A stretch of 64,000 bases of DNA. Origin: Protonemura montana. Its lineage: Eukaryota > Arthropoda > Insecta > Plecoptera > Nemouridae. Location: contig OX387607.1 in assembly GCA_947568835.1 (NCBI GenBank), positions 9,563,701 to 9,627,700 of the forward strand, written 5' to 3'. The notes below the pieces were generated by a model, which saw only the letters and a program-made list of their open reading frames with translations, was not told where the DNA came from and did no database searches. Shown here piece by piece: positions 4,839 through 45,420 of the stretch. Position 1 is the stretch's first letter. Each line of letters starts with the position of its first letter. The position numbers and the translations under genes are program-made.

Positions 4839-5197
4839 AGTGGGATTTAACGACGCACTGTTTTGGCAAAATGACACTGTGGCACTGGTCTAATGGCTTC
4901 GGTGAATTAGTGGATGATGATGATGAGAATGATGATGAACCTAACCTAGTCAAGAAGGGAACGGGGTAAACCAGCTTACTTAGCACCAAGGCACCAAGGC
5001 ACCAAGGCTTTAAGTCCTTTCCGAAGGCCGGTTCAACGCGAATAACATGATTCCTCCACAAATCCATGCTGTCGAGAGGTTGATAAGCAAGGCGAGTAAA
5101 GTTGTTGTACTAACTTTCATACCTACAACCTCTCTCCCGGTCATGTGTATGATGGTCACCCATCCAATGCCTGACCCAGCGCCGTGTAGTTTTGATC
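4839..5197 (-). repeat. 5S-rRNA-derived SINE, copy S2
   Basis: The reverse-oriented copy starts with the element's 3' end (TTTAACGACGCACTG on the plus strand) and runs through the GATGATGATGA stretch and the CTCTCGACAGCATGG-type segment to the 5S box C complement (GGTCACCCATCCAA). The outermost 5S head is lost or diverged after about 5197. It contains a short tandem of CACCAAGG units. Confidence 0.85.
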
Positions 5198-5428
5198 ATA
5201 CACTCATATCTACATATTCTTGATGTATGCAAAAATCGGTTTCACGGACAGGACACATAATACGTTACCCGGGAAGGGTATATTTAACATGGTGTATAAT
5301 ACTTCACTGAAATCTCATTGAAACACTTACCTGTCACGATTACACATTCTAAACCACATCCTACCCATTATGCCCAGCAAGTGCCAAATTCTGATCACCG
5401 CGAGTCTCAAAGCGACTTGCCGACTTTT

Positions 5429-6020: not shown

Positions 6021-6404
6021 CTTAAAGACGCACTTTTTTAATATGGGCCGTGTTGCACTGGTCTATCGTTAGTTAATGAGTGAGTGATGATGAGGGTGAT
6101 GATGAATCTACCTTAACCTAGAGGGATAAGAGGAAATCCGGTGCCTGTACGTAGCATAATTCTGTTGAAGAGCACAAGATTCGAACTACAGGATGTCTCC
6201 ACTTATCCTTGCTGTCTTGAGAGGTTGATAAGCAAAGCGAAATAAGTTCTTGAACTGACGTTACTTCTTCAAGTTCAACCTCTCTCTTACACAGTGCTCG
6301 TCATGGGTATGATGGTCACCCATCCAACACCTGGCGCAGCGCAGTGTTGCTTAACTTTAGTGATCTCACGAGAATCGATGTTTCCACTACGCTGAACCGT
6401 TCGG
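6021..6404 (-). repeat. 5S-rRNA-derived SINE, copy S3
   Basis: A near full-length reverse copy from TTAAAGACGCACTTTT (3' end) to the head GTTTCC...CCGTTCGG at about 6404. It contains the box C complement GGTCACCCATCCAA and box A complement GCTTAACTTTAGTGATC. It lies just beyond the 3' end of the first cuticle gene. Confidence 0.88.
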
Positions 6405-6669: not shown

Positions 6670-8259
6670 TTAACCGACGATGATGGACCTGGCTCCCCAA
6701 GGAGCGGCAACTCCCTGGAGTCCCCAAGGCGAGGCGACGAGTCCATGGGCGGCCCAGGGCGATGCGATGAGTCCGTTGTGGGCGATCACGTTGGGAGCGA
6801 TGAGTCCGTGGGTCGACACGAGTGCGGGGGCAGCACGGAGCTGGAGAGCGGGGGCGGAATGGATCTGGACGGTCGAGATGGCGGCGGGGGCGGTCAATAG
6901 GGGGGCGCCTCCGATCAGGAGTCCGCGCTTGTCTCGTGCTCCCTGTTCGGCCTCCTCAACGGGGGCGGCGGCGACAACGGCCACGGCGACAACGACGAAT
7001 GCAATCTAAGGGTGAACATATAATTTGAGAACTTGGAGAGGTTATTTACAGGACCAAATAGTCAAAACAGGAACGAGATTTAATTTCCTTTTTTTAGTTT
7101 GTGGATTGTTGCATGAGCGTTCTTGACCGTCAAATACAATTTAAATTTAAGACATGTTTTTCCATTGTGTTCAATCAACTTAAGTGAAATAGATAGTTCG
7201 GATAACTTGCATTAGTAGCAAAGCATAGCGAACGAAATGAGCAAAGAGAAGGCTCAATTTGTTTGCGGGGAAAAAAAATTGCAGAAAGTTTTTTTGTTTT
7301 GTATGTGTTTATTCGCTCTCTTCCGGCTAAACTGTTGGACTGATTTGGATGTAAATTGCAAGACAAATTCTAAATCTCTGAACTTAGATCTGCTACGTGT
7401 TTGAAAACAATCGAGCTCTTGGTATTGTTTAAAAACAAGATTTGCGAAAAAAAATCCGTTAAAATAGTCCTGACACGTTTTTAGTTTGTAATTAGCATAT
7501 ATAGTTTTCATGATAACATGTTTACAATAAGAATTTGAAAGATACTTTAGTGAACCTAAAGTACCGAAAGAAGCGTGAGGGCTAACTCTTCTCCAAAGGT
7601 AAATAAAGAAATAAAGAACAAAAAAATATATACGCTCATCTACAAAACTTAGATTGTGTTTGCGAAGCCCTTGTCCACAACGTTCCGCTACCAACTTTAC
7701 ATATATGCCATTTAGTGAAACACGTAGTTAAATTAGCATATGCACATCGTGATTTCGCGAGGTCTTATCAAGTATCGGTTGACCATTTTCAAATTAGTCT
7801 CGAATTCAAGCGATGGTAATTTATGTGCACACAGAAAAAAAAACCCTGGGCTTTGAAGTCTTAGAAAAATATAAATATTTATCACTCTCCGAGGGGCCAT
7901 GTTAAAATGCAATGACGAACACGGACATGCCAATCGTGTAATGGATGGATTTAAAATTTTCTGCAAATTAAAGAGGTAAATGGTGTACCTATACTTATAA
8001 TTGGTCAAACTGATTATTGATGATATACCTGGGGGTTCTAAAATAAATTTACTATACCGAGGGTAATAAACGGCTGTCTTATGACGTCTATTACATGTCG
8101 TATTACATGGTTAAACATTTTATGATAATGTACATCGGTAATTTGGCTCTGTTGAATTTTTGGAAACATTGTACCTCTATTTTCGATGCCTAGCAGTATT
8201 TTAATGTGAAAAACGCATTTTAAGTTGATGTTGTTCGGATAACTTACCAAGAACTTCAT
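6670..8259 (-). CDS. Cuticle gene A: Ala/Pro/Leu-rich secreted cuticular protein
   Basis: Two coding exons: 8248-8259 (Met-Lys-Phe-Leu) and 6670-7005, joined in phase 0 across a GTAAGT...TTCACCCTTAG intron, giving 115 residues. The product starts MKFL then IAFVVVAVAVVAAAP, a clear signal peptide split by the intron after residue 4, the usual arthropod cuticle gene layout. A short acidic propeptide-like part ends in DKRGLLIGG, a probable dibasic cut site. The mature part is rich in Ala, Pro and Leu, with repeated (L/V)IASPW and HGL/APW motifs. There is no chitin-binding Rebers-Riddiford consensus. It should be exported from epidermal cells into cuticle. It resembles low-complexity alanine-rich cuticle proteins; the exact subfamily is uncertain. 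Neighbour B has the same architecture. Confidence 0.85.
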
Positions 8260-9190: not shown

Positions 9191-10054
9191 TTAACCGTAG
9201 TAAGCATAGGGAGAGTACGCAGAGTAAGCAGCGGAGTATGGCGAATACGCGGCAGTGTACGGCGAGGCGACGAGAGGAGCAGAGAGTCCGGAAGTGTAAG
9301 CGTAGGGAGATGCGTAGCCGGGGGCGTACGCGTACGGGGACAGACCCGAGGCGTACGTGTACGGCAGAGCGTACGGGGAGGCCAACAGGGCTCCTCGTTT
9401 GTCGCGGACGATCGACTCGACCTCTGGTTTCGCCTCCAGTTGGTCGGCGATGACGCAGGCTGCCAGCGCGAGGAGGGTGATGAAAATCTTTAAAAAAAAA
9501 CGGGAATATTGGTTTGGTTAATTTGTTGTTTTTAAATATTGTGGTGAAAAAATATTCCCTGTTTTGATTTACCTCGTTGTAATAAAAAAAAAAATAACGA
9601 TTAAAACTTTATACATGGGCCATGGCAAATTATTTCCAGCATCTTTGATTTTGAGAGTTGTTAGAATGAAGCATTTACAAGCAGAATTACTCTGGGATGC
9701 TGGAAAATCCTTGTGAAGTAGTAAAGCGTACCTACAGTTTGCTTGCTACAATAACAGCGTTAAATTTGCAAAATACAAGGTTCACACCGACGTCTTTTTC
9801 CACATGAAATGCTTTCATTTTTCTGTATGTATTATTTAATTTGGTAAATTTTAAGCGGCATTTGCGATGAGGTAACAACATGCAACTGTCTCAATATTGC
9901 AAATATCAAATTAAATCACTGTACTTCCACTGAATTTATAGGTTTAGTTAGAGGACCAGCGTTAATGTTAAACATAAGTAAAAACGAGCCGGCTACGGTA
10001 GTACGGTAGTACCATGTACTGTAATGTTTTATCTTTTCTTACCATGGACTTCAT
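9191..10054 (-). CDS. Cuticle gene B: Ala/Tyr/Ser/Pro-rich secreted cuticular protein
   Basis: Two coding exons, 10043-10054 (MKSM) and 9191-9487, joined in phase 0 with donor GTAAGA and an acceptor after a T-rich tract, giving 102 residues. The signal peptide is MKSM then IFITLLALAACVIA. A short charged propeptide (DQLEAKPEVESIVRDKRGA) ends in DKR-G as in gene A. The mature chain is built of repeated ASPYA, SAYSPYA and PYAYT motifs, ending in YAYYG. Such Tyr/Ala/Pro repeats are typical of sclerotised cuticle and offer many tyrosines for cross-linking. Shared intron position and the DKR cut site suggest that genes A and B are related by old duplication or belong to one cuticle gene cluster. 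Confidence 0.85.
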
Positions 10055-11268: not shown

Positions 11269-14200
11269 ATGGCCTTTAAGCTGCCTCCGGAAAAATCAGG
11301 TTGGTTAGGCCCTGAAGAACATTTTTCCGACACCGGTGACATTTCCGACGATGCTACTTATCAGCCAGCTGTCAAATCACCTCTACCAAGGGATGAAAAT
11401 CGTCCAGTGGAAACCAAAAAAACAACAAATACTAGTGACATCGTCGATTTAAATCTTAACCAAAGGCATTTTGAAACCAACGCTTTTCAAAGCTCACCGC
11501 CTGAAAATGACCCATATGTCGTAGGGTACGTTGCCCGCAAAGAAAATGTGGCGCCTCGCGGTTTTGTGTCGTATCCTGTCGACGTGACCGACGATGCGCG
11601 TCGCGACGGCAGCGTCGTTCCTAACGACAAACACAGAGACGCCTTTGTATATCAAACTACGATGCCGATAGGTTTTGAGAAAACCGCTGCTCTGCCGACA
11701 TTAGATCCAATCCCAAAGGTAGATGCAACTGTGCTAGAAAAAACTAATGTTCAAAGCAGGGGCGCTCACAACCAAAAATATCGACAACGTGCAAAGACGA
11801 CAACTTGCTTTGGAAACCGAGGCGAAAGCGAGGGTAGTTTTTATTACATAGTTACGCCGAAGAAGCGTGAACAAACGGTGCAGGAGCCGATCTCTATCAT
11901 TGATGTAGAAAGATACAAAAGTTACGAAAACGAGACCCCCTTGTCAAGGAATGCATCCGTTGTTTCTCCTATAAGTGGGCAAACAACGTATCAAAATAGG
12001 GAGATTTTCGACGGGACACAAATTGCGAACAATAAGGTTTCAAAAAGTAATAACATAATTCAGTCGATTTTGAAGAAACCCATTGAGCACTTGCCTCACA
12101 CTCATTTTCCCAAATTGAGCAGTCTTAGCCCGATAAGGCCAGGTAACCATGACGTTTTCACAGCTGTAGGCACAGAGCAGAAACCGAAAATAATCGAAGA
12201 CGGGCAAGTGTTTTCTAGCCATTCCGTAAGGTTCAGCAACGACATCGCCATGAATCGTGCCGAGGTCCAGGCTTCGAGCGCTTTCTCGCAGAACTCTCGA
12301 GGAACGAACCCTCAGGAGTTTCAGGAACGAAACGTCACGGGCACCGCCCGACCGTCGACTAGATCAACCTCGCCGTCCAGATTGAGCTGGAGGACCGGGA
12401 AATCACCAGGACGCGGACGCTCCACTGATAGGGTTCAGTCCCCGTATCAATTTGCAGGAAGGAGAAAGGAGACGGCACGAAAAAACGATTTGTTTATCAT
12501 CGACGAAGAGGTCCACGCTACTAACGACAGTGCACGAGATGCAGTCGCCAAGGGAACTCGTTCCGATTTGTCTTCTGGTGCTAAACGCGTGATAGTCGGT
12601 CGGGTTTCGTCTCCGAGACGAAGTCGAGACATAGATCTCAGTTGCCAAACATCCGATTCCGCGTTGTCAACAAAAAGAAAGCGCAAGGAACACAGGAATA
12701 CTGACGGAAAATCAGTTGCCGATGCAGTTTTCTATGAGAACGTGTGTGAAGAGCAGAATGAATGTAAAGAGCAAGTCAGGAACAAGAGCGACTGGACCGG
12801 CTTGAACACATACCAGGCACACAGGGTTAAGTTTGAGGACAACCAAAAAAGGCTTGACTTGGTCAGCCCGGATATCTGCGCCATCAGGCAGACAAAAGTA
12901 CAGACGTCGTTCGAAACGACGCCATTGGTCTACGCGACGAGTTCCACAGAGAAGATCGCTTGCCACAACGTGGTCTGCAAGACGAGACAACGTCGCGCGA
13001 GTCAGGACAAAGGAGAGACGGACAAGGACTGTTTCGACAGGTTAGATTCGCCACGCAAAAGGGAATCGAGGCGTTTGTCTAGACCCGCCAGCGCCAATAA
13101 GGAAAATTGCACAGCCGAGCTACCACTAAAAGTCATTTTTAAAAGGCCTCCTTCGATAAAGAAAAAGTTTCAAACGGATTGTGCACCCGATAAAAGTCGA
13201 GAAGTCCGAGTAAACACTTTAATACGTGAAAAATCGCACCCTGAAAGCTATGTGAATAACAACTGTGATATAGGGGTAAAAACACATTTTGAGAACCCTC
13301 CCTATCGAGCTAGCAATCTGAGTCGACACCGAGCGTCTCTGGACGTGGGCAACGACGAACATTGGGTGGCTGACGACGACGTCCCCACGATCGAGGAGCT
13401 GAACGAACGGTTTTACACTCCGGCTTCGGTCTTGCCTACTCCTGCCGGTAAGGATCACAGGTTTTACGACCAACCTCCTGAGAAACCTTGTCAGCAGACT
13501 AAGGAGACACAGACAGTCTTTAGGGGATCGTCGCCAGGTCCGCAACCCGTTGGCAAAACACAAAAATTCTTTAATATTGTCGGGCCGAGCAGCAAAGCTA
13601 GAAACACTATTGTAAGCCAGGCAGGCTGTCGATCTCAGCTGTATGACGGTAAACAGAGACCGTTCCCACGAAGCCATAGATTTGACGAGTCTCAACCCTA
13701 TGAACATGTTTACTCCGACTCTATAAGAGTTCTCCCTGATTTTCAAAGCCAGCAGTTATATAATCCCAATGCGCGTGGCCAAAATCTGAACGTAAATCAC
13801 TGTGAAGCTTACAATAGAAATTTTGAAAATGATGGAAACCGAGATTTCTATAAAAATTCCAATGGATGGGGAGATCAGGATAATTACAGAGACTATGACG
13901 GCTATGGAAGTCCTAATGAATATAGTCCTGATGAACATGGAATTCCTAATGAATATAGTCCTGATGAATATGGAAATGCTGATGAATATAGTCCTGATGA
14001 ATATGGAAATGCTGATGAATATTGTCCTGATGAATATAGTCCTGATGAACATGGAAATGCTGATGAATATAAAAATGGAGCCTCGTTCCCTCCGCCCGTT
14101 TTCGTCGGCAAGCCTCTTGGACAAACGAACAACAACCAAGTAGTTGAAGGAGCGTGGGATTTCATGAAGAATATGTTTCGCAAAAAGAAATTCCGGAACG

Positions 14201-14481
14201 CAGCGTACAACAAGAGGGCGGAAGTGTCCTGCGGAGATTGCGGGAACGGAATGAGGTTCACGCTATCGGTGGGAATGCAGGACGGCGCCGGCTGTCTGGT
14301 GTGTTACAACAGGGTCAGGGATGACTTCACGGAACTGTTGAATGTTTACAAAGAGAAGGGGTATTTGCCTTGTGATTGCAAGAAAGCACTTTGTGTCACT
14401 GAACTGGTCAATGGGTATATGGCCCAAGAAAAGGTGGTGTGCACTTGTATAGGGGATGCGTTCATTGATCTAGGAAAATAG
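11269..14481 (+). CDS. P1: long low-complexity protein with C-terminal paired-cysteine domain
   Basis: A single uninterrupted frame of 1070 residues; the ATG has A at -3 and G at +4. Residues 1-870 are polar, Ser/Arg/Lys/Asp-rich and probably disordered, with basic SP-rich patches around 365-390. Residues about 880-935 are 4.5 copies of an 11-residue repeat (G-x-x-[ND]-E-Y-S-P-D-E-[HY]), one copy extended by five residues. A basic stretch (FMKNMFRKKKFRN) leads into the domain at about 985-1064: C-x2-C-G, F-T-L-S-V, C-x2-C-Y, R-x-D-F, G-Y-x2-C-x-C and a last C-x-C (CTC). The four cysteine pairs suggest two zinc sites. The same module is in P2 and P3. KETQT at 745-749 fits a dynein light chain LC8-binding motif. 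There is no signal peptide or membrane segment. Function unknown; not a family I recognise. Confidence 0.85.
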   Translation: MAFKLPPEKSGWLGPEEHFSDTGDISDDATYQPAVKSPLPRDENRPVETKKTTNTSDIVDLNLNQRHFETNAFQSSPPENDPYVVGYVARKENVAPRGFVSYPVDVTDDARRDGSVVPNDKHRDAFVYQTTMPIGFEKTAALPTLDPIPKVDATVLEKTNVQSRGAHNQKYRQRAKTTTCFGNRGESEGSFYYIVTPKKREQTVQEPISIIDVERYKSYENETPLSRNASVVSPISGQTTYQNREIFDGTQIANNKVSKSNNIIQSILKKPIEHLPHTHFPKLSSLSPIRPGNHDVFTAVGTEQKPKIIEDGQVFSSHSVRFSNDIAMNRAEVQASSAFSQNSRGTNPQEFQERNVTGTARPSTRSTSPSRLSWRTGKSPGRGRSTDRVQSPYQFAGRRKETARKNDLFIIDEEVHATNDSARDAVAKGTRSDLSSGAKRVIVGRVSSPRRSRDIDLSCQTSDSALSTKRKRKEHRNTDGKSVADAVFYENVCEEQNECKEQVRNKSDWTGLNTYQAHRVKFEDNQKRLDLVSPDICAIRQTKVQTSFETTPLVYATSSTEKIACHNVVCKTRQRRASQDKGETDKDCFDRLDSPRKRESRRLSRPASANKENCTAELPLKVIFKRPPSIKKKFQTDCAPDKSREVRVNTLIREKSHPESYVNNNCDIGVKTHFENPPYRASNLSRHRASLDVGNDEHWVADDDVPTIEELNERFYTPASVLPTPAGKDHRFYDQPPEKPCQQTKETQTVFRGSSPGPQPVGKTQKFFNIVGPSSKARNTIVSQAGCRSQLYDGKQRPFPRSHRFDESQPYEHVYSDSIRVLPDFQSQQLYNPNARGQNLNVNHCEAYNRNFENDGNRDFYKNSNGWGDQDNYRDYDGYGSPNEYSPDEHGIPNEYSPDEYGNADEYSPDEYGNADEYCPDEYSPDEHGNADEYKNGASFPPPVFVGKPLGQTNNNQVVEGAWDFMKNMFRKKKFRNAAYNKRAEVSCGDCGNGMRFTLSVGMQDGAGCLVCYNRVRDDFTELLNVYKEKGYLPCDCKKALCVTELVNGYMAQEKVVCTCIGDAFIDLGK

Positions 14482-14488
14482 ACCCATC

Positions 14489-14494
14489 AATAAA
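14489..14494 (+). terminator. Polyadenylation signal of P1
   Basis: AATAAA begins only eight bases after the P1 stop codon, implying a very short 3' UTR. Confidence 0.6.
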
Positions 14495-14589
14495 TAATTT
14501 CAAAAAGTGTAACAGTCAAAAAGTGTTTTTTTTTGCAAACATTACAATATAAAAAAGATATATCTTCAAATTAGGATGAAATCTTATTT

Positions 14590-14720
14590 AAATTGCAAAC
14601 GCTTGCAATGCGCGGGGTATTTTATTATTATCAACACTATAACCGTCTCAAAAATTGATGCCCAAATGTCCCCGTTTGGGCATCAATTTTTGAGACGGTT
14701 ATAGTGTTGACAATACAAAT
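14590..14720. repeat. Small foldback element with a perfect 36-bp stem
   Basis: The left arm at 14,631-14,666 and right arm at 14,675-14,710 are exact reverse complements around an 8-base loop. Just upstream is GCAAACGCTTGCAATGCGCGG, itself partly palindromic. The same upstream motif followed by a shorter, decayed hairpin recurs at about 43,740-43,835, so this is a repeated, MITE- or foldback-like element. No open frame is present. The perfection of the stem argues for recent insertion or recent correction of one arm by the other. Confidence 0.8.
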
Positions 14721-15001
14721 ATATATCTTGTAATAAAATTACTTCAAATACTTCTTCATGACCAGAGTTAATTGAAAAGGAAGCTAATAAACAAGACTGT
14801 GTTTAAAAGAAAACAGCTGAAAATTCCGCGATTGACATTTCCTTCCATCACTGTATTTATGTCAAAACTTAATTTTGCTATGTAAACTCCAAATTTTCAG
14901 GATGAACCGCGCACTACGCTATTTTGATGGTGTTTGAGAGTCTTAAAAATGCCTCGGATCAAACAGAATATTTGATGACCATCATAACTTAAGAAATCAA
15001 C

Positions 15002-18000
15002 ATGAACGCGCCGCCGCACCCAACCATCCGTTCCCGAAACGTTCGTGCAAATATGCCAAGCTTACAAATACCTCGAAATAATCGTCCTGCCAACAGGTCA
15101 GGATACATGGGGGCACACACCGACCCCACCGCGGTGAACTTCATTTTGGAACCGCTAAACTGTCGACAACGTTTCAACCCTCCTCAATCGAACGATGCCT
15201 TCAGGAAAATTCGGGGAAACCGGCACCAAACCTTCAGTAGAAGTCCTCCGCGTGAAATGTACCAGTCTCACAATTCAAACATAATTGATCCGAACGATGT
15301 CTACTACCAAGAGTTCCAACGAATTTCTGGTAGACCAGGAAGTTGTGATAACTCTTATTTTATGAATAAACTAGCTCAAAAATACAAAATTGACGCATAC
15401 AATTTAAGTCACACCATACCACCACCATTCCCGACACGAAAACCTTATACAGTAGCGCCCGTTTCCGCTTCGTGTCCTTTTCCAGCACCGCAACCACAAG
15501 TTTACAGAAGCAGCGTGCTCCCCAAAAAAGGCCCCGGCGTTAAGGGTGGACTCACCAAAAACGCATTCGTTACTTGCGTGTGTGGTGACCGCATACAGTT
15601 CAGTTTAAACGTCGAAAACAATCAAAATAACAGTAAATCACAGTGCGAAATTTGCTTCGAGCGTTTGCGAAAAGATTTCGAGGAGCTAGTAGAGTCGTAC
15701 ATCGACCAAGGGTTCATACCGTGCAAATGCAGAGGACGTATCAGTGTCTCAGAGCTGGCTGCCGAATACTGGCAGGCCGAGGGGCTGCGATGCATCTGTG
15801 ACGACCCTTCCAAGATGGTTCACACTTGCGGGAAACCGGCGAGACCTCAAAGACGCTTTGCAGCAAAGTCCTTTGCGGCAGACTTTGCGCGAGATATGGA
15901 GGAAGACAGGAAACAGGTAGGTTCACTTCAATGTCGTGTGTAGTGTCGTTACAAAGCTGTTTAACGCTTCCCTGCTTAGAACTTAAGATTTTTTAATTAA
16001 TAGTCATACAATTATTTTAAAGCGCGAAGAAGATGAAGCAATCGAAGAGGAATGTTACTCGGATTGTGACGTGTCCGTTGCCAAGTCCGAAGAGTACGAC
16101 GATGACGATTACGACCAGGAGGAAAGCGGTGACTTTGCCGAGGAAAATAAATCTTCAGGCAGTAAAAAAAAAGCTGCTAAATTCCCAGAAGACGAAGACG
16201 ATTTCAACGAGGACGATGCGTTGCCTGCTTCGGAGGCACCGTCCGATGAGTCGGTAGCCTCTCAAGCTACTGGAACCAGTGTGTCCAAGAGCCAGAAACG
16301 TTCGGTGACTTCCGACGAATTTGAAGATGACTTTGACGCCGATGCTAGCACAGCAGGCTCTGGACGAGGAACGAAGGGCGGGACAAGATATGGTGGACGG
16401 GGGTCTTCACCGTCGGAAGGCTCCGAAGGTTACGCGAGTGGTTCGCGTGGCGGTGGTAGGACCAGGTCGGAATATTCTGAAGACTATCCACGAGACTCGA
16501 GGGGTAGGTGTACAGTTTGCGGTGATAGTAGAGACAGGGGTGGCAGAGGGTATCCGTCGTCCCGTTCAGGCGACTCTGACGGTTACCAGCGAGGTGGCAG
16601 AGGAGGTCGTTACGAGTCCCCTGGTCGAGCCGGCCGATCGAGTGGGTATTCAGGAGGCTCCAGGGATAGAGGGCAAACAGGTCCGTTGGAGAGGGGTTAC
16701 AGAGGAGGGCCAGGTGACTCTGGTAGAGCTCGAGACCGACAGGGTCGTGACGGAGGGCGTGGAAAGCGTGGGGGCGCTGGAGCGTACCCTGATGAGGAGA
16801 GAAGAGGTGGTTATCGTGATTCAAGGGGCTCTGGTAGACAGTCTAAAGATGATTCTAGAGGTTCTGATATATCTGGCCGCAGCTCCAGAGGCTCTGGACC
16901 GTACCGTTCAGGAGAGAGACCACGCTCTGGTCAAACGCGGGACGGCTATGGAGGTGAACGCCGACCTGGAAGGAGGACACCAGAACTGTACGATTATTCT
17001 GAAGGACGAGGCGCTAAAGATTACCCAACAGACCGAGGTGGATACGAGCCCCAAAGTGATAGATACAGGTCCCGTGGGTCTCGGCGTGATCCTGATTACA
17101 GTGACCGACAGTGGGAGTCGAGTCGGGGAAGGGTAATGCGACCTGAGGACCGCGATATGAGGCCCAAAGGTCGTCGCAGTGGGTCAGGTAGGGATGCGAG
17201 AGACAAGGAGAGAAGGCCGCCGAGGGACTACAACGATGGCGATGAAGACAAACGTCGGCGGCCTGTTGGAGGGGGAGCAGGCTTCCAGAGTCAAACCCAG
17301 GACCGGAAAGAAAGAATACCGAACGACGACGTGGCCAGGAGTCGGAAACCGGCCTCAGGAGCCAAACGAGCTGAAGCTGGTGGATCAGAGGCAGCGAAAA
17401 GAGGCAGGCCTCGAGCGCGAGAACCAGGTGAGAAAAAGACGGAAGGTGGAGGTGCCCGTCCTAAGTCAGAGCGAAAAAAATATCCGGAAGGGGTGACAGA
17501 CCCGAAGCCAAGGGTCGGAAAGGCCGAGGGCGAACAGCCATCATCGAATAAGTCTGATGGGCCACCGAGAGAGAAGAGGGTGACTGAGAAGACGGTGACT
17601 AAGAGGACAACGGTGGAAAGGGCAGTGCCGGAAGAAAAAGAGAAGCCTGTCAAGAAAAAGAGACCTGCTGAGGGTCGAAAGAAGGCAGTGATTGCTGAAA
17701 AGACTGTTGAGCTAGCGAAAGAAGAGGCTGAAAATAAACCAGTGAGTAAAGATTCTAGAAAGAAAAATGGTGCACCTGCCACGGGAGAGAAGGTACAAGA
17801 ACCCGCGAAGAAGGAGGAAGAACTCCGAAAAGAGAATGTAGAAGATAAGAAGGTTGTGAAGAAGAAGCTTAATCCAGACGAGGTAGAGAAAGTTGTAGAG
17901 AAGAAAGAAGTTAAGAAGAGACCCAAGGAAGAACCAGCGAAGGTTGTAAAAACAGAAGAGAAAAGGAAAGAGGTAACGAAAGAGGAGAAGAAAGAAAACA

Positions 18001-18122
18001 ACAAACTTGTGCAGAAGGAGACGACTGTCAAAGAGGAAACGGTTGTGGAGGAGGAAGAGAAGCCTAAGAAGCCCAAGAGACACTCGAGGAGTGACATGGG
18101 CAGCCACCATGTCACATATTGA
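15002..18122 (+). CDS. P2: paired-cysteine domain protein with long RG-rich and Lys/Glu-rich tail
   Basis: Two exons: 15,002-15,916 and 16,023-18,122, joined in phase 0 by a 106-base intron (CAG/GTAGGT ... TTTTAAAG), giving 1004 residues. Residues 1-180 are Pro/Arg/Asn-rich. The shared cysteine domain is at about 190-266: C192-x-C194-G, F-S-L-N-V, C-x2-C-F, R-x-D-F, G-F-x2-C-x-C-R-G, ending in C-I-C. After the intron come an acidic stretch (about 306-400), a very Arg/Gly/Ser/Asp-rich RGG-like region (about 418-720, with an isolated CTVCG) and a Lys/Glu-rich tail (about 765-998). Such RG and charged tracts often bind RNA or drive condensates; this is inference. Start chosen as the ATG after in-frame gene-free sequence. 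No signal peptide. Function unknown. Confidence 0.85.
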
Positions 18123-18175
18123 TTCAGTTACCTGCTCGTGAAATGCCTTTGTGCATAGCATTTCTGAAGACTCTC

Positions 18176-18181
18176 AATAAA
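18176..18181 (+). terminator. Polyadenylation signal of P2
   Basis: AATAAA 54 bases after the P2 stop codon. Confidence 0.65.
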
Positions 18182-18649
18182 CAAGTTGTGTATGTTTTTG
18201 TACCCTTAGTACCTCGTCAGTACTCATTTGTTAGATAAAGTGGTTGCAGATATCACTAGCAACACCCTCGTTTGATTTTGTTCACATTTAATTTCGAATA
18301 AATAATAGGCTTCAGTAAATAATCATCATTTTTAGCTCCATGATTATATTGTTATATTATTAAATAATTAGTCAATACAGGATGTATAATTGAAGTTATT
18401 CCTAGTTACTTGAGTAAAAATAATATATTTATCTGTTTTTTAAATTAGTACCACCATAATTTGTGGTGCTCAGCTTAGATAAGACTTTACGTAACGTTGT
18501 AACGTTACATAAAGATTGGCATGTGGTATTTTAGAGCGAACAGAGAGTAACTATTTGGTTCTCTGCAGCCAGTTGCATGCCAGGGAATAAATCCTTTAAG
18601 AAAAATATTTTTTTTAATTACGGTTGTTTTTCAATGTTCCATAAATACT

Positions 18650-18655
18650 TTTATT
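18650..18655 (-). terminator. Polyadenylation signal of the lectin gene
   Basis: AATAAA on the minus strand, about 45 bases after the lectin stop codon. The roughly 470 bases between here and the P2 signal hold no gene; the two genes converge. Confidence 0.65.
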
Positions 18656-18698
18656 TCTTCTCGTCCATCGCTCACGAAGTCTAATTTTCTCTCCTGGG

Positions 18699-21618
18699 TC
18701 AATGCAGCTCGACTTGCAAAAACCGCTTGCAAATGTATGGTAACGTGAACCCGGGCCCAGTTTCGACGTCTTCGAGCCCCGTGCTCCGTTCGTAGGGGTT
18801 CAAGTAGAGCAACATTGCTGGGTAATTGGAGCTCGGAGTCGGCACATGGTCGAACAACCACGTGTAATAGCCAGAGTGGTCCAGCCGCTCTCCTGCAAAT
18901 TCAGGCACGTTCAGGACTCGGGTGTCTGAATTGGAAGAATACGACTTAATCGCTGTCTTTTTTAACTTAATTTCTTACTTCACTATCATTATCTTTCATG
19001 GCCAAGTCACCAAGACTAAAAAAATCGGAATTTGCATTAAATTCATGATATATTCTCTACCATAGCTAGGTTATTACCAAGTGCGAGGGAATTTCCAGGC
19101 ATTTTCGGGCAACAGTTACGGCAATTTCATGAAACAGCCATGTATTGTAACTTTAATCGCATCCTAAAAGGAAATCATTCCTGAATTAATTAATCTTGAT
19201 TCCATGCACATACGCTTCTTACCGTAAGCATCCTGCAAGGGAAATAAGATTTTAAACTAGTCAATAAGCAGTTCTGAGATACTAGGTTCCAGAAATAAAT
19301 AAAAAAGTGTGTAAGCTTGCAAGGAATATGCTAGCCCGAAAGTGAAGATACCAGCAAACAGACTGCCCCCGCACCATGGCTAGTTCAGCTAAGATTTTAG
19401 TGGCGGATCAATTCCCAAGATTGTTATAACTGGTAGAAAAATGCTTTTAAAATAGCTCGAAAGCAAAACATTTTGGCATGGAAAAAGCTTGGCTAAAAAT
19501 GGCTAAAATCAGCGGAGTTGATTTGCTGTTTTTTTTTTTTAAATAGCAGTTGGCCCGTGTGTCATTCCAAAACGACCGGCGACGCCGCTACCCGAAAAGT
19601 ATGTTCGCTCGCTGAAAGAAAACACTCACCAAGAATGGTTCTAAAAACACCGCCCACGTTATGAGCGCCGTAGTGTATCTTGATCCCGTCCGGGGCGCCA
19701 TACTTGGCGAAGACGGCGTCGAACTCCGACTTAGATCTAAGCACGAGCAGGTATCCACCCTCCGAGAAGCACGTCGCGACGGCGACGCGCCATTCGACGA
19801 CTTCGGTGTGCAGTTTATAGTAGCCGTAGCCCGGCAGCAGGTCTCTGGGGGGTGAAGAGCCAGCCAATAAATAATGGTTCCTTTGGGCGAACAAAACCTA
19901 TTTGACTTGACAGCTGTTATCCTCTTTTTACCAATTAGCTGCAGGCTTATTAATTTTTTACTAAAACAAGTGCTTCCAGTAGCTTCTGGTAGACAAGTTA
20001 TGGGTCTTGTCATAGTACGCAATGCTCGGGCCGAGTTTACACAATTCGAGGCCTAGAAATCCCACAATTCGCGCCCCTATGATAGCAAGGTGTTTTTTTT
20101 TTGCTATTTAAAAACATGAAACATGAAATTAAATTCCTCCAAGACCGTGCTCTCAAGCCACCAAATAAGAGCAACGAAGTTGAGAAAGGAAGAACTCCTA
20201 TTGTCAGTTTATTCATTTCCCTTTCAAAGGCCGGCGGGAGAACGGAAGGAAGAACAAAATAAATTTGCTTTCTGACCCTGGCTGCTTCAAATTACATATC
20301 AGCTAAAAACAAAGAAGCCTGTCTTTATAGGCACAGCGGTGGCTTTGATGGATTGGCTTTGATGGATTGGCTTTGATGGATTGGCTTTGTTCTTGTCCTA
20401 TAGCTTGGTCTAGATTAAAGCAATGAGGATATAAAATAACAAAAGCGATACAATGCGACCAATAATAAATGCGGAATTGCGATTCTAGTGAAAGGTTTTG
20501 AAGTTTGGCAGACAGTTTTGAAGTTCTAGATCGACGAACAGGCGATCGTCAATAATTTTAAAACGTTTAAGAAACCCACCTTATGCAACTGGACGCATTA
20601 CTTGAATCAGGTGTTGTTTCTTGCGTCGATGGAGCCGTAGTTTGAGCCGTAGTTTGAGCCGTAGTTTGCGCCGTAGTTTGAGCCGTAGTTTGAGCCGTAG
20701 TGTGAGCCGTAGTTTGAGCCGTCGTTTGAGCCGTCGTTTGAGCCGTCGTTTGAGCCGTAGTTTCAGGCATCGTTTGAGCCGTGGTTTGAGCCGTTGTTTC
20801 AGTCGTTGTCTCTATCGTAGTTTCAGGCGTCGGTTCGGGCGTCGGTTCAGGCGTCGGATTGGTAGTAGGCAGAAGCCCATTGACGTTACCCTGGATGTTG
20901 ATGTAAATGTTGTTGGCGTTCAGCTCGCGGAAGACGACTTGCACGGCGGAGTCCTCGCCTTGGGGATTCTGGGCGATGTCAACGGCGACGTCAACAGCTT
21001 TGGCGTCGTCATCAGCTTGGGCGTCGTCAACAGCTTTGGCGTCGTCATCAGCTTGGGCGATGTCGATGGCATTTACATGATTCTGCGTTTCAAATATTAA
21101 TGTACTATGTTGTCTAAAAACTTATCAAACATAGTAATTGATGTGTTGTTTTAGTTTTGAAAGCTTTCAGGAGGTTTTAGATTATGCTTGAAGTATTATT
21201 ACCGAGTTGAAATTACAAGAATGTCATGTTACTTTAACAGTTCGAGATAGACATAATAAAAAACATTTTGAGCCACATGAGTTACCATAAGATGAGCAGG
21301 AATCTGGTGTCTGAACATTAACTTTTGATAAATGTTTGATGTTTTTTTAGTTAGCGGAGTTTCGTCGCAAATTCTGAATGGTGTGGGAGCAAATTTCGAA
21401 AAAAATTACACATTTTCAATGAAACTTAAATTTTATGTCGACAAAAAAATAACTATCATGAAGTTTTCTTCAACGATAATGCTTGGAAAATTTTAAGAAA
21501 AATGTGTCAGCAATTATTTTTTTATATAATACGGTCTTACCTGGGGAAAAGTTTTTACAAATTTGAAGTTGGTAAAAACAGCGATCGCCACGATAATAAA
21601 AATAGAGGTTGCTTGCAT
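18699..21618 (-). CDS. Secreted C-type lectin-like protein with mucin-like Thr stalk
   Basis: Four exons: 21,541-21,618; 20,580-21,082; 19,630-19,844; 18,699-18,925, with phases 0, 2 and 1 all agreeing; 340 residues. Exon 1 is a signal peptide (MQATSIFIIVAIAVFTNFKF). Exon 2 holds an Ala/Asp repeat (AQADDDAKAVDD twice), a short hydrophobic module (VQVVFRELNANNIYINIQG) and a stalk of Pro-Glu and about 18 Thr-Thr-Ala-Gln tetrads, likely O-glycosylated. Exons 3-4 form one C-type lectin domain of the insect hemolymph LPS-binding type: GYGYYKLHTE, W-x5-A-x2-C, GGVFRTILG, ending LPYIC. The outer disulfide cysteines (VATC and YIC) are present, but the inner pair and the EPN/QPD and WND calcium-sugar motifs are absent, so classic calcium-dependent sugar binding is unlikely. 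Probably an immune or extracellular-matrix protein. Confidence 0.85.
20341..20389. repeat. 14-bp tandem repeat
   Basis: Three and a half copies of GGCTTTGATGGATT in the second intron of the lectin gene. A simple repeat. Confidence 0.85.
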
Positions 21619-23491
21619 CTTGTGCGAAGTAAACGACTAGCATATGTTTAAACAAACTATTGGCAACTTGGTTGAAGTGCGTTTGATTCCTGAATGCCGC
21701 GATCAAACTGCCGATTACCTAAAAGTTCGAGGATTTTATCCGCCATTTCGCTATTCTTAGAAGGATTAGCAAGTGAACAGTATTTGCAGCTGACTTTTAC
21801 CTGTCGACTCTATTTAACACCAATAAATGTCGGATCTCTTCATAATCTATTTATTGGCATCATATTTTGCTTTTGTTCGACTCGGTTAACTAATCTGTTT
21901 GTATCTTTGAATTTAAGAAATCGTGGATTAGTCATGAATTGCGCGATTAAAGTGCACTAAATGTCATTTGTAAGGGATTAACGATGTTGACACAATCGCA
22001 ATTACTTCGTTGCACCCTCGCCGAGTCATACGTTTTCTGAGAAGATTTCAACTGATTTTTAGTAATTATTTCTTTCAACAAGAAGTTGGAGTTGACTCAA
22101 GCATCAAATCATAAAATGTTGCCTACAATTCTCTTAGAACCGTTGGGCAAGGCAGAAAAACACGAATCAAACAAAAGTATAAATGATTGTAATTTTAAGC
22201 GCGGGCTTTTGCACTTAAATTTTTTGCCATATTCACTGCCTCTCATTAAAATTGAAAAAATGATGTAACCTGTCCTTTACTGTCTTACTTTAACAGTAAA
22301 TCTGAATAGAAAAATCTGCATATCGGAAAGGATCTAATTTCTAACATCTAATTGTTTTAATTAGCAAAACAAACAGTTTTAATTATTTTTTCTAAAACTA
22401 GTGTGACCAGATAAAGTAAACATGAGTCTAAAACCCATAAAAATGTCAAAATCTTTGATGCAACCTGCTACTAAATCTAACTATAAATATCAAGATAACA
22501 AGTAGACAATTGTTCTAAATACTGTAAGTGTCGATCGGATATCGTTTAAGTCACGGATTATGTATTTTATTGTCGTTTATAACAACTAACTCAATCATTG
22601 AATTGCGGATAATAAAGTATCGGTTGCAGCAGATGACAACATTGCCATTGGAAACAAATTTAAACCCGAGGATTCAGAAGCTTATTATCCATTCATACCT
22701 ATAAAGATCTTAGATTTATTAGTCCTTTGTCGGCATATTTTCAACCTCATCATTCACGGAGATGGGTTTCGTTTTTTAAGCCGTTGTACGTGTTTTACGA
22801 CACAGACATGCATATATTTTTGGTCACACCTTCATGTATTATTTTCAGGATTTAACAACCTATTAGCTTTTATAGGATAGAGTTACAAACAAGGTTAAAA
22901 ACAAGGTTGCCGATGGTTCTTATCCTGAAAATTTTACTCTCATGACATTTCACAATTTCTCTTTTCTATATCCTTTGACCAGTTTTTGCTATTGAAAGCA
23001 ATAAATACAGCTGCTTTCCAGATTTTATGATGTCACACAACATCCTGCTATTTGATAGGGTAATTCCCCAATTGTTTCTCTGACAGGACCTGCCCACGTC
23101 CCAAAATATTCAAACACGATATGTAAATTATTGTTTTGCAGCCACTGTCTCTTGGATTTTACGACCTCTTTTACTGAAAATTTCCGCAAAAACAATATCA
23201 TGCCTTCAACGTCATAGTTCAGAGAAAACTACTCATATTTTCTATTTATTTGACGTTAAATGATCCAAATTTCAAAATGCCATAAAATCTAAGTCAGAAA
23301 AAAAGCCGTCTATACTCAAAAATTAAAAATGGCAAATCATTTTCAGACTAGCACGACGTAAGTTCATACTTTATTGCAAACTTTGATTGAAGAAACGCTT
23401 CAGAATTGATTTGCAACTCAGGTAATGTCAAAGAAAAGTCGTTTAAGTCGTACACTATCGTCTTAATTAGAACTTGAAACAAGTGCAGACA
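21619..23491. other. Intergenic stretch between lectin gene and P3
   Basis: No coding exon found. A TAAATAG-like box with a TCAGC site about 27 bases downstream (about 21,788-21,818, minus strand) could be the lectin promoter, but this is weak. The rest is AT-rich with no recognised repeat. Confidence 0.35.
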
Positions 23492-25621
23492 ATGTCGAAA
23501 AAAGCCCGAAACATCTTGTGCGGCTGTTGCTGTCAAGACTCAGCAGCTGTCTCAAAGGATCAGTTCCCTTTGGCCAAGAAACAAACTTGCGTCTCCATGG
23601 GTATACAGACTGAAAGCTACAAGTGTCGCAACTATTACGAGCAGGAAAACCAGTCGAGTTCCCAGCGTGGCTACCCCCTAGAAAACCAGCCGAGTTCCCA
23701 GCGTGGCTACCCCCTAGAAAACCAGCCGAGGTCCCAGCGTGGCTACCCCCTGGAAAACCAGCAGAGTTACCAGCGTGGCTACTCCCAGGAAAACCAGCAG
23801 AGTTACCAGCGTGGCTACCCCCAGGAAAACCAGCAGAATTACCAGCGTGGTTTTGAGCACGGCTACCAGCAAGACTATTCACATGATTACTCTCAAAATT
23901 ATCAAAAGGATTACAATCAGGAGTGCATAGATCCATGTGCCGAAACAAGTCAGTATTATGGGAATCAATACGACGCCGAATTAGGCCATCAATTGTATGG
24001 TGCCCCAGTTGGTCCTTGTCATAGATATAATGACGATGCTTCAACGCATCAAAATGATCCTGCGATGGCAAGTAGTAAAAACAATGGTAAAATAGGATAT
24101 CAAAAAGAGGATGAAATGAGATGTAGATACGATCCATTGAGTTCACGATACAACGCATTAGGTGGTGATCAAAACGAGGTCACGAGAGATGGTGATGATC
24201 ATTTATCGGGCATCGGTGGTGTTGACGATGCCAACAACGGAATGGAAGACGGGGTTGGAAACCAAATTGATCAAGACCTTGCTCATGACCACGAGCACGA
24301 CCATGACCACGATGACGACGAGACTGGTCACAAAAATACACCTCATCATCACGGGAAGAAACCAAAAGGTTCAGGACCTTCAGGACTCACAAGGACCGCC
24401 ACGATTATGCCAAGTAATCAGCCGCCATTTTTAAATCGCGGACCTTTCTCGTCTCATTCAAGACCGTATTCAGCAATGCCGTATGTTCGTTCCCGCAACA
24501 GTCTACATCCTGACACCAATGGGCGGGGATTCGGACCAGGGAGGCGAGCTACTGACCCCGGCAACCAGAGGCAATCAATGATGGAAACCAGAAACAGAAG
24601 ACGAAACTCATCCTTACCATTCGCAAGACCTCCATTAACCACATACTCGATTCCTCAAGCTAGCTGCAGCGAAAACCCTTTCTATTCGTCCCCACAAGAT
24701 CACCCAAGAGATATTTGGCAGAACAACAACCAGCAATCTTATCTCTTCGGGTTCGGAAAGAAGAAAGCTGCCAAAAATAGTGGCGACGGGAGCAGCAAGC
24801 TGAAGATGCTGTATCAGATAAACAACGCGGGCGTTACGTGCAATTGCGGGCAACGGATGCAGTTCAACCTGTCCGTGGAGGAGAATGAGGGGCGATGCGT
24901 TGCCTGCTTCGAGGAGTTACGTCAAGATTTCGCCGACCTCTTAGACCTTTACAAGGAAATGGGTTACACCCAGTGCGAATGCAAGGGTAGAATCAGCGTT
25001 ACCGATCTTGCTAACGAGTACCTTATGGACCAAGCAAACAACGCTAGCGGACTGGGATATGAAAATGTTGGGGCACCGAGGAAGAAAGCCCCTGTGAAGA
25101 CAATCGAGTTGACTCCGACAGAAGGCTTTACTGGCTGCTTGTGCAGAGAGATTAAAATGGAGATGTTTAGGAAGCCTAGTGATTTGCGCTCCTGTCAGTG
25201 TGACACTGATCGACCCAAAATTGTGTTGCGACCACCCTCTGAAGACGACGACGACGAGTCAGAAGCAGAGTCTGAGAAGCCGGAACATGAGGAAGAGCCC
25301 GAACTGCTATCCGAGTCGGAGTCTGAGGAGCCGGAACATGAGGAAGAGCCCGAACCGGAGCCGGAATCGGAGCCTGAAATAGAGAACGATCCTAGCCCAG
25401 CGTCTAGATCAGACAGTATATTGAAGTCACCTACTAATACATCTGCAGAGACAGTATATACTGTTGCTGGGTCATATGCTAACGCTTTATTCAAGAAACG
25501 CAAACCTGTCCCACCATATTTTAGGTCAAAACAATCAAGCTCTTCAAATACAGCTTCATATGAAACTGCTTCATCTGACAGATCTGTTCAATCAAATAAG
25601 ACGTACATTATTTCAAATTAA
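23492..25621 (+). CDS. P3: repeat-rich protein with paired-cysteine domain and acidic tail
   Basis: A single exon, 709 residues from the ATG at 23,492; upstream in-frame sequence lacks another ATG. Order: a cysteine cluster near the N-terminus (C10-G-C-C-C14); a GIQTE motif (37-41) resembling LC8-binding sites; six 12-residue repeats (ENQxSxQRGYPx) at 52-121; a Gln/Tyr/Asp segment; a His/Asp-rich tract (HDHEHDHDHDDD); Arg/Ser/Pro-rich sequence; a basic leader (GFGKKKAAKN); then the shared domain from C450-x-C452-G: F-N-L-S-V, C-x2-C-F, R-x-D-F, G-Y-x2-C-x-C-K-G, V-T-D-L-A. The final C-x-C (GCLC) is displaced by a Lys/Ala-rich insertion and followed by another (CQC). The tail has acidic repeats (PEHEEEPE). 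No signal peptide. Function unknown; clearly related to P1 and P2 only through this domain. Confidence 0.85.
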   Translation: MSKKARNILCGCCCQDSAAVSKDQFPLAKKQTCVSMGIQTESYKCRNYYEQENQSSSQRGYPLENQPSSQRGYPLENQPRSQRGYPLENQQSYQRGYSQENQQSYQRGYPQENQQNYQRGFEHGYQQDYSHDYSQNYQKDYNQECIDPCAETSQYYGNQYDAELGHQLYGAPVGPCHRYNDDASTHQNDPAMASSKNNGKIGYQKEDEMRCRYDPLSSRYNALGGDQNEVTRDGDDHLSGIGGVDDANNGMEDGVGNQIDQDLAHDHEHDHDHDDDETGHKNTPHHHGKKPKGSGPSGLTRTATIMPSNQPPFLNRGPFSSHSRPYSAMPYVRSRNSLHPDTNGRGFGPGRRATDPGNQRQSMMETRNRRRNSSLPFARPPLTTYSIPQASCSENPFYSSPQDHPRDIWQNNNQQSYLFGFGKKKAAKNSGDGSSKLKMLYQINNAGVTCNCGQRMQFNLSVEENEGRCVACFEELRQDFADLLDLYKEMGYTQCECKGRISVTDLANEYLMDQANNASGLGYENVGAPRKKAPVKTIELTPTEGFTGCLCREIKMEMFRKPSDLRSCQCDTDRPKIVLRPPSEDDDDESEAESEKPEHEEEPELLSESESEEPEHEEEPEPEPESEPEIENDPSPASRSDSILKSPTNTSAETVYTVAGSYANALFKKRKPVPPYFRSKQSSSSNTASYETASSDRSVQSNKTYIISN

Positions 25622-25986: not shown

Positions 25987-26434
25987 ATGGGTCGGATTTT
26001 CTTGGATCATATTGGTGGGTCCAGACTCTTTTCTTGTGCAGCCTGCGACACAATTTTAACAAACAGAAGCGAACTGATCAGTACACGATTTACTGGAGCT
26101 ACTGGAAGAGCGTTTCTGTTCAACAGAGTAGTCAACTTGAATTACAGGTAGCGGTTGTCATTTGCATTTTTGTTATTTAATGCTCTACTAACCTACTGAT
26201 AATTTAGCTGTAAAGTTTGCGTTTGAATTTTTCAGCGATGTGCAAGATCGAGTGATGCTTACCGGTCGCCACATGGTACGCGATGTGTCGTGTAAAAATT
26301 GTGATGCCAAGCTCGGGTGGATTTACGAGTTTGCTACAGAAGAGAACCAGCGTTATAAAGAGGGTCGAGTGATTCTCGAACGTGCTCTGGTCACTGAAAG
26401 TGATGGAATTGATGAGCACATGGGAGATGATTAG
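25987..26434 (+). CDS. YPEL5: Yippee-like 5 zinc-binding protein
   Basis: Coding exons 25,987-26,147 and 26,236-26,434 (phase 2 junction, AG/C serine), 119 residues. The start codon directly follows an acceptor (TTCTAG), and a likely untranslated first exon ends at 25,895 with AAG/GTACTT. The protein is almost the vertebrate YPEL5 sequence: [12 protein letters not shown]-x2-C (CAAC), [46 protein letters not shown] and [12 protein letters not shown]. The two C-x2-C pairs bind one zinc in the Yippee fold. In animals YPEL5 associates with the GID/CTLH ubiquitin ligase complex and with mitotic structures. It is single-copy and conserved, useful as an orthology anchor. Confidence 0.97.
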
Positions 26435-34020: not shown

Positions 34021-37000
34021 TTAGTTCTTCTTGTTGATATCAATGTCGGCAATTGTAGGCAGGTTGGTAGGCCTGGCGTTGTATTTCTCACGAAGTTCTC
34101 GCTTCTGAATCTTTGCGTTGAACGAGTATGGAAGCGAGTCCACAAACTTAACACCTCCGTGCAGCCATTTGAATTTGGGCAGCGTATCTGCAATGTCAAT
34201 ATTAAATCAAACGTCTCACTTGGGAATCATCATTTATGCGATCCTACCTTAGGGGTCTAGTCACTTCATATTTGAATTATGGGGTTTCAACTACCTAATG
34301 GTCTTATTTCAATAGTTGATTTTAAATTCAATGTCATTGTTTTTTAACGAAATTCTGATCTCTTATTGGCGACTCGCAAATCAGGTTCCTAATTATAAAA
34401 AGAAATCATTTAAACATTTTTCATGGATTTTCACAAAAATTGCAAGTAAATTTCACCAGTCCAAGGTCCACTGCCTACACTTAAGCTACATCCTCAGTTG
34501 AAGCATAATTGAATTAATCAACCTACCTTAATTGTTAAAGTTTTGTCCTTGGAGCTGATATTGAACCACAGAAGAAAAAATGGATAGAAAACAAATAGTT
34601 TTGTTTCTTGCAAATAACCAACTGTCTACAGATGACAATAACTTAATATAGTTGTAAGGGTAAGACATTGGATATTTGTAAATTCATAGCAATAGGTTTT
34701 TTGCATTTCTGCCACAGTTTTTACCTTGAACAAGTTTGACGAGTTCCTCTTCGGTAAGTGTCTCCCCCTTCTTGACAACGACGATGGCAGTGGCATGTTC
34801 CCAGTCGGTGTCGTGATGGACTCCGATGCAGCACGCTTCCTGTACCTTTGGATGCCGAAGCAAAACCTCTTCGATGTCCGTTGCGGGGATCTGTTGAGTT
34901 CAAACAACTTATGTCAATGCTCTGTAAATTTAGGTAGGCATTTAAACAAGAAACTAAATCCAAACAAATAGAGTATTTAATAGTGAAGGTACTGAATAAT
35001 ATAAATATATTTATATGGTACAAGATCAAAAATTTAAGTTGCAAAACTGGAAAAAGCATCATTGGAGAGAAATCTGTTATATCTCAGTTCTTATTTAACT
35101 TCGACAGTTCCGACCGCAATTCTCTACCAGATCACATTGCAAACTACAATACGATATAATAGTAATGCCATGCACACAAAAGAATTACTTACATGTACAT
35201 TCCTATACTTGATGTGCTCCTTTATCCTGTCGACCATGTACAAGTAGCCATCATCATCAAAGAAACCAATGTCACCAGTGTGAAAGAATCCGTCGCTGTC
35301 AAAGATGTCATTGGTGGCTTCAACATTGTTCCGGAATCCTCTCAGGGCGTACGGGGCTTTCAAACAAAGTTCTCCTTCTTTTTTCGTACCCAGGGTTTTG
35401 CCAGTCGTGATGTCAATAATCTAGATTAAAAAATAAGCAATAAGAAAAAAGAACAAGTTTGGACTTAAGAAAAAAATGTCTGTAATCCTGTTTATATTTT
35501 AGTGAAAAGACAGGAACAGCTAAACATTGACCAGAAATATATTAATTTTATTTAGTCTTGACTTAATTGTACCAAATTTCTAACCTTGGCGACAACATTG
35601 TCAGCGAGCTTGCCAACGGTTCCTGGCCTTGTTGTCAGTCCATAGGCTGGACTGCACACTCCAACTGTCTCGGTACTTCCGTATACAGGTGTGATGTTGA
35701 GATTAAACTTCTCTCGCGCCAACTCCTGCATTGCCTTGGAGACTGGAGAGCCGCCGACAAGCGCAGACTTCAGCGAAGACAGGTCATAGCTCTTGCCCTC
35801 CGACGATTTCACGAGGGCTACAAGATGGCTCGGACTCATCACGAGAAAGTTGACCTTGTATTTGACGAGGGTGTCGAGGAAGATAAGTTCAGTAAAGATC
35901 TCGATGGGGATGAGCACACAGATCATGTGGCTGTTTAGTGAGAGCAGGCTGATGGTTTGGCCGGTGACACCGAATGGACCGGCGATGTTCACGGAAACCT
36001 CTTGGGCTTTATTGTTATCGCCGGACCTAAACATGTCAAAAAATTAATTAAAACTGAAATCCTGTGTATAACTGATGCTAGTGAATTAATAAATTGTAAA
36101 ATAACTTCGGTCAGTTTTACAATGTCCAGTAAAATAAGCAACCAGAGGTTTACATGAAAGTGTAATCTGATTGGCTGTGACCATGGAGATGAGTTTTAAC
36201 CGACAATTATCCTTTTTGCTGGAGATTGGAAAACTGGGTCTTTAATTGCCTACACCTGCAGTAATTGGGGATGCAAACTAAATTGAAATTATTTGTCCTC
36301 TTTTATGAAGTGTTTCTTCATTTTCAAATCTGGTAATCTAGTTCTTCAGTCTTGCTGACTGTTGTTTCTGGAGTGGTGTAAATTTACATGATGAACTCAT
36401 TTTCACAGATTGTAAATAAAAAACTCTCTAGGATTATGTTTTTGATGGGAATGGTTTTGCTCTGCATTGGGTTGTTTTCGGTCCTAAAAAAGACCGCGGC
36501 TGGTACTGACGTTTTCGACGAATTACCTCATCTTGAACCAGGCTTAAAATATCTCTCACTTGAGGTAGTTGAGGTCCATCTGCCTCATGATGGTTGTGTG
36601 ACAAACTTCAGCACACTTTGGTCGACCCGAAGAGCCAGATGTACACAGAACGGTTGCAATCTCGGTGTCCGGGTCTTCGATCTTGCCAAGGAAGAAGCCC
36701 TCCTCGCTGGGGTTGTCCTTTAGGTACTTGTAAATCTCGGCCATGGTTATGAAGATCACCTTCTCGTCATGCGTCTCGAGCACTTTGCGCATGGTGGCCT
36801 CGGCGTGCTCGTTGCAGACCATGATCTGCGGACGGATCGTCCTCACGAAGTGGGCCATGTCATCTGGAAAGCATACGACAACATTCCGATTCTATTATTC
36901 TCTCTATTCTAAGCAGGGTTTAATCTAGGAAAGTTTTGAAAAATCTCTTCTGGGCAGTAGATTTAACATGGGATTGAAACTATTTGAATTTTAGCGTTGG

Positions 37001-39472: not shown

Positions 39473-39528
39473 CTCGATCGCTTGGTACGACGGTGAAGGG
39501 TATGTGCCGCAGGTCTGTCACACTTTCT

Positions 39529-39536
39529 CTTTTATA
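39529..39536 (-). promoter_or_regulatory. TATA box of copy A
   Basis: TATAAAAG on the minus strand, about 60 bases upstream of the start codon. The same box lies at a similar distance before copy B. Confidence 0.65.
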
Positions 39537-44656: not shown

Positions 44657-44713
44657 CTCGACTGCTATATACTAGAGTACAATTGAAAGTGCCACAGATT
44701 TCGCACTCACGCA

Positions 44714-45416: not shown

Positions 45417-45420
<4 letters not shown>

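Follow-up and report, generated by a model that had tools for sequence, protein, structure and literature searches.

Small cysteine domains that lack any characterisation are common in animal genomes. Among the described ones, the treble-clef zinc domains form a fold group and the SWIM zinc finger follows the pattern CxC...CxH. Dph3 is described as a CSL zinc-finger protein (PMC3502187); it is reported to bind zinc and iron by way of this finger and to donate electrons (PMC8153317). Here we describe a paired-cysteine module of about 80 residues that is common to three clustered proteins, P1, P2 and P3, of the plecopteran Protonemura montana, encoded on a stretch of 64,000 nucleotides (the window: contig OX387607.1, positions 9,563,701 to 9,627,700, part of a 20.9-Mb contig in a 258-Mb genome). 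We favour, at a probability of roughly 45%, a reading in which the three would be scaffolds that are intracellular and largely disordered, form a tandem family of long standing and are built around this small, folded and probably two-zinc anchor, a reading that builds on four direct observations: the module, its conservation, its three copies in the genome and the open frames.

The module and its conservation

Pairwise blastp of the frames as listed by the open reading frame (ORF) search (P2 being the 313-residue frame) returned one strong local match per pair, which is the module (E = 1.1e-14 for P1-P2, 4.2e-16 for P1-P3 and 1.8e-21 for P2-P3), and no other local match below E = 2.1, in agreement with an earlier sequence-only reading that had seen no similarity elsewhere. 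Cysteine richness does not explain the match, since E remained strong with all cysteines masked (1.9e-9, 1.3e-12 and 4.7e-17 for the three pairs). The three copies share 21 invariant columns, and the motif frame proposed in the sequence-only reading is present in all of them from C-x(1,2)-C-G through F-x-L-x-V, C-x2-C-[FY], R-x-D-F-x2-L, Y, G-[YF]-x2-C-x-C and V-[ST]-x-L to a second Y, except for the last C-x-C, which keeps its register in P1 and P2 but lies 51 rather than 20 residues on in P3. That the module is a real conserved domain seems to us virtually certain, and the pairwise E values, masked and unmasked, make the relation of P1, P2 and P3 by duplication, as that reading had also proposed, well supported.

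By the Nei-Gojobori method, the nonsynonymous divergence (dN) of the module is 0.61, 0.43 and 0.42 over 70, 69 and 71 codons for the three pairs; no value was obtained for the synonymous divergence (dS), which we read as saturation, and identical residues use the same codon in just 8/26, 11/31 and 18/36 cases. On these grounds (the dN range, the valueless dS and the few shared codons) we take the three copies to be old and under purifying selection in the module. A folded core strongly kept in three otherwise unalignable low-complexity proteins would show plainly how a module can be conserved while the scaffold around it turns over.

A profile search over the window plus 100 kb on each side (264 kb, 8732 frames of at least 20 residues) recovered the three modules at E = 1.9e-45, 5.4e-44 and 2.1e-43, with the next match at 0.69, and each module alone against the whole genome (E 10) led to the same three places. 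The genome searches proceed exon by exon with only the best candidates scored, so a strongly diverged fourth copy could have escaped. A cysteine-spacing scan of 354,193 residues gave 16 matches, 13 of them overlapping in one frame at -31403 and the remaining three being the modules. When segments outside the module (P1 1-959, P2 1-182 and P3 286-446) were compared with the genome at E 0.01, self-matches alone were found.

We also searched described families with the modules and the proteins. In Pfam no match rose above the curated cut-off, either for the modules (DUF1488 lowest at 0.013, then GFA 0.063, WH_DRP 0.16 and zf-UBR 0.21) or for the whole proteins, where Trypan_PARP reached 0.015 in the acidic tail of P3; proteins and modules likewise gave nothing above the curated cut-off or E 0.01 in NCBIfam (best 0.04) and PHROGs (best 0.038). 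Among PDB sequences no match was significant for the P2 frame (best E 0.75), the module profile (0.23), its first half (0.15) or its second half (1.8). The best PDB rows were PHD2 (Egl nine homolog 1), which we set aside because a single cysteine stands opposite the CxC of the module. The family may be undescribed, as the sequence-only reading had proposed, in the sense of being absent from Pfam (a search that this reading had put forward as a check), NCBIfam, PHROGs and PDB sequences. Relatives of the module were sought in collections that hold no animal genomes, so that their absence there says little: 36 and 96 pattern stretches in viral contigs (none confirmed), 21 stretches in genome contigs (among them a match of 23 residues in Sellimonas that we put down to chance), a single weak match in plasmids (E 0.6) and no match in phages. 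Six peptide strings from the module occurred in no paper found, nor did we find a paper on a novel zinc-binding domain in intrinsically disordered insect proteins.

Candidate metal sites and described zinc domains

The cysteines are laid out as CxxC-17-CxxC-22-CxC-20-CxC in P1 (with a ninth cysteine at residue 1042, inside the last gap), CxC-20-CxxC-22-CxC-20-CxC in P2 and CxC-16-CxxC-22-CxC-51-CxC-16-CxC in P3, whose extra CxC pairs stand at 555/557 and 574/576. The third pair and the 22-residue gap that leads to it from the CxxC are invariant in all three. In two AlphaFold models, both built on the three-row alignment, a helix starts near the CxxC and a second helix follows the third pair, at low confidence, and a hairpin appears in one of the two (mean predicted local distance difference test, pLDDT, 49.6 and 52.0). 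The segment after the CxxC is amphipathic in P2 (P 0.016) and P3 (P 0.023). Zinc binding by the module is plausible given the pairing of the cysteines, N-termini that carry no hydrophobic stretch and a CxxC that starts a predicted helix. We consider it likely that the module binds metal in some form; that it does so at two sites is about an even bet, the two zinc ions of the sequence-only reading fitting the layout of P1 and P2, but not that of P3, where the fourth pair is out of place.

In the reading that we favour, a treble-clef-like site 1 would consist of the CxC-G of pair 1, carried by a beta-hairpin, and the CxxC of pair 2, which would start the amphipathic helix, while pairs 3 and 4, flanking the second helix, would make up site 2. 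A genuine first helix would have pairs 2 and 3 at its two ends, which would favour sequential sites (1+2, 3+4) over cross-bracing; the invariant 22-residue spacer would suit a rigid helix that holds the sites apart. To the extent that the low-confidence models can be followed, the putative fold may resemble a treble clef (a knuckle on a hairpin and a CxxC starting a helix); unlike a treble clef, the module carries additional CxC pairs after the predicted helix. The second half, in which some 20 residues follow a CxC, resembles a SWIM zinc finger, but it ends in CxC (P1 and P2) rather than CxH, and the Pfam rows of the modules included no SWIM family.

Several points weigh against two sites around a folded anchor. 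P3 has no fourth pair in register, P1 carries CxxC in place of the first CxC along with its ninth cysteine, and the segment after the CxxC of P1 is not significantly amphipathic (P 0.10). The pLDDT of the models is too low to judge distances between cysteines, and Foldseek with both models found nothing significant (best E 5.4 each). An internal duplication of two like halves was not supported (P 0.10; hhalign probability 2.9%, P-value 0.015). The displaced fourth pair of P3 is what would be expected if the module were a single-zinc domain of pairs 1 and 2, with pairs 3 and 4 serving otherwise, but we hold this to be doubtful, as pair 3 is invariant in all three proteins and CxC-20-CxC is identical in P1 and P2.

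The first half could alternatively be a diverged CSL finger of the Dph3/Kti11 type that binds zinc or iron and may transfer electrons or attach to a translation or tRNA-modification complex. The two look alike in C-x-C-G, a hydrophobic strand and C-x2-C, with a gap of 16-20 residues in the module and 19 in Dph3 (by eye), and this C-x-C-G ... C-x2-C layout is found in P2 (gap 20) and P3 (gap 16), P1 having C-x2-C-G. Kti11/DPH3 chains appeared among the sub-threshold PDB rows of the module profile (positions 9-55, E 0.49-0.59), but were absent from those of the first-half profile, and hhalign of the module with CSL returned a P-value of 0.0003 (a single comparison) but a probability of just 17.6%. 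Against a four-sequence Dph3/Dph4 profile, permutations with cysteines fixed reached the real score in 25/1000 cases for P2 and 38/1000 for P3, but in 489/1000 for P1. The Cys-Ser-Leu after the second pair is missing from all three modules (the residues there are FE, YN and FE), PF05207 was not among the Pfam rows for proteins or modules, and its seven matches over the genome (E 10) include DPH3- and DPH4-like exons and none of the modules. The module further differs in that its second pair seems to run into a helix, beyond which come another helix and additional pairs of cysteines, and we found nothing that ties it to the electron-donor role of Dph3. We therefore regard membership in the CSL family as very unlikely, the CSL finger being at best an analogue of the module.

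Gene models and a putative scaffold role

The frames of the sequence-only reading at 11269-14481, 15002-15943 and 23474-25621 are all in the ORF list. That reading took P2 to end at 15943, which covered less than a third of it: the listed frame runs eight codons beyond a donor at 15917 and then stops, and joining 15917 to 16023 across a 106-bp intron is in frame and yields 1004 residues with the sole stop at the end. The frame of exon 2 has its first ATG 371 codons in and an in-frame stop upstream at 15984, and hence needs an upstream exon, so that splicing of exon 1 to 16023-18122 is the most likely arrangement. P3 probably starts at the ATG in codon 7 of its frame as listed, rather than at the TTG. 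The genes had been described as side by side, which holds for P1 and P2 (520 bp apart), but 5.4 kb with minus-strand open frames separate P2 from P3. The features are collected below.

Table. Features of the P1-P2-P3 cluster, in window positions
Feature	Position	Strand	Remarks
P1	11269..14481	+	single open frame, 1070 aa; ORF list
P1 body			charged/S/R-rich; composition
P1 tandem repeats, YSPDEYGN-type	13903-14077		tandem-repeat search
P1 module	14209..14478	+	residues 981-1070, C-terminus
AATAAA 3' of P1	14489		
P2 exon 1	15002..15916	+	305 codons, module inside; donor CAG/GTAGGT
P2 module	15548..15829	+	residues 183-276
P2 intron (inferred)	15917..16022	+	106 bp, GT...AG, GC 0.32
P2 exon 2	16023..18122	+	acidic stretch, RGG/RS-rich region, K/E-rich tail; separate frame 16071-18122 in ORF search
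P3	23492..25621	+	709 aa from first ATG; ORF listing begins at TTG 23474
P3 composition			Q/Y/N-rich 12-residue repeats, D/H stretch, module, E/S/P-rich tail
P3 module	24812..25078	+	residues 447-535 counted from 23474

Order-promoting residues make up 42%, 39% and 35% of the modules of P1, P2 and P3 versus 24%, 15% and 21% of the remainder, and judged by composition alone the three proteins would be mostly disordered. The basic stretch said to precede each module is a weak feature: all three proteins have a net charge of +5 over the 30 residues that lead up to it, but 11%, 12% and 8% of the windows of this length in P1, P2 and P3 are equally basic.

The highest 19-residue hydrophobic mean within the first 30 residues is -0.63, -0.72 and 0.39, and we take P1, P2 and P3 to be intracellular because none has a strongly hydrophobic N-terminal stretch. 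The same absence of a signal-peptide-like stretch speaks against structural proteins (sperm, egg-shell or cuticle material) whose cysteines would be disulfide cross-links and not metal sites, a possibility to which the tandem low-complexity repeats, the unalignable bodies and the clustering of the genes lend some weight, as do two small upstream frames (6673-7005 and 9194-9517, minus strand) that look secreted and cuticle-like by eye and have no Pfam family. The RGG exon of P2 does not suit such material, and the paired CxC/CxxC spacing with its conserved hydrophobic positions would fit a metal-bound core better, making a structural role quite unlikely.

Our preferred reading, of intracellular scaffolds around a folded anchor, takes P1, P2 and P3 as old tandem duplicates that would have retained the module of about 80 residues while the rest drifted unrecognisably. 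The module may serve as an anchor, either binding other proteins or associating with itself, and so bring the variable tails together, and the RGG (P2), Q/Y/N-repeat (P3) and charged-repeat (P1) tails could lead into ribonucleoprotein (RNP) or condensate-like assemblies. Such a use of the scaffolds would be their likeliest role, weakly supported by the RGG region of P2; that region is present in one protein of the three, which counts against the reading as a whole, and we rate a part in an RNP-like assembly as tentative, with the odds clearly on the other side. Less probable still is the bolder idea that the module founds a lineage-restricted family of two-metal domains whose three members, joined through their like modules, co-assemble as one condensate or RNP scaffold, each tail contributing a different chemistry. 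If the module does bind metal and the members pair, it would provide an entry point to a group of scaffolds that have gone unstudied.

The disordered parts might instead recruit the dynein light chain LC8 through QT motifs, which would dimerise the proteins in the manner reported for Panoramix and ASCIZ. We counted these motifs by their general definition. P1 holds four loose QT motifs, including KETQT, versus 1.36 expected (P 0.048), and P3 has the strict motif once, GIQTE, versus 0.05 expected (P 0.047). These P-values are marginal and come from six tests without correction, the loose motif giving 0.32 in P2 and 0.39 in P3 and the strict one 0.28 in P1 and 1.0 in P2, where it is missing. PMC5963919 and PMC7861614, which deal with LC8 in connection with ASCIZ and the Panoramix complex, serve as a lead only, and we see little prospect for LC8-bound scaffolds here.

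Neighbouring genes and repeats

Between P1 and P2, at 14618-14723, lies an inverted repeat with 49-nt arms that are 92% complementary and 8 nt apart. It has at least 80 matches in the genome, counting both strands and with the best 40 of 576 candidates scored, and so is a palindromic dispersed element, perhaps of the miniature inverted-repeat transposable element (MITE) type. Between P2 and P3, a minus-strand frame of 184 residues (20570-21121) combines an acidic part with long repeats of the TTAQTT/PTPEPT type and appears mucin-like by eye, all its Pfam matches being below the cut-off. Open frames at 18702-20052, on the same strand, resemble what we take to be pieces of a C-type lectin-like domain, a reading that Pfam did not support for the frames on this strand and that was dropped.

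Directly downstream of P3, at 25987-26431, is a Yippee/YPEL5-like gene whose exon at 26192-26431 matches PF03226 (Yippee/Mis18) at 5.8e-7. Its domain, which has two cysteine pairs, is a cysteine-pair domain as the module is, but kinship was discarded, as hhalign of the module with this neighbour gave a probability of 0.6%.

Farther along the window, on the minus strand at 34600-51500, what seems by eye to be an AMP-binding (luciferase/4CL-like) gene is repeated several times in tandem, and the one exon tested matches PF00501 at 3.6e-18. A gene that carries a VDS(I/M)MLCEEGF motif and resembles a methyltransferase by eye is present at 54700-61000 in two or more tandem copies; two of its exons were run against Pfam, with no match above the cut-off. 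Two 5S rRNA matches, at 40180-40298 (minus) and 40442-40560 (plus), face in opposite orientations with 143 bases between them, and visual inspection picked out further stretches that resemble 5S near 740-830, 5100-5200 and 6240-6370, which are not in the Rfam listing and suggest 5S-derived short interspersed elements (SINEs). Six-unit TTAGG arrays occur at 13,014 overlapping places across the genome, with internal positions for the ones listed on contig 1, versus 44 for TCAGG, and these counts fit a telomere repeat of the insect or arthropod type.

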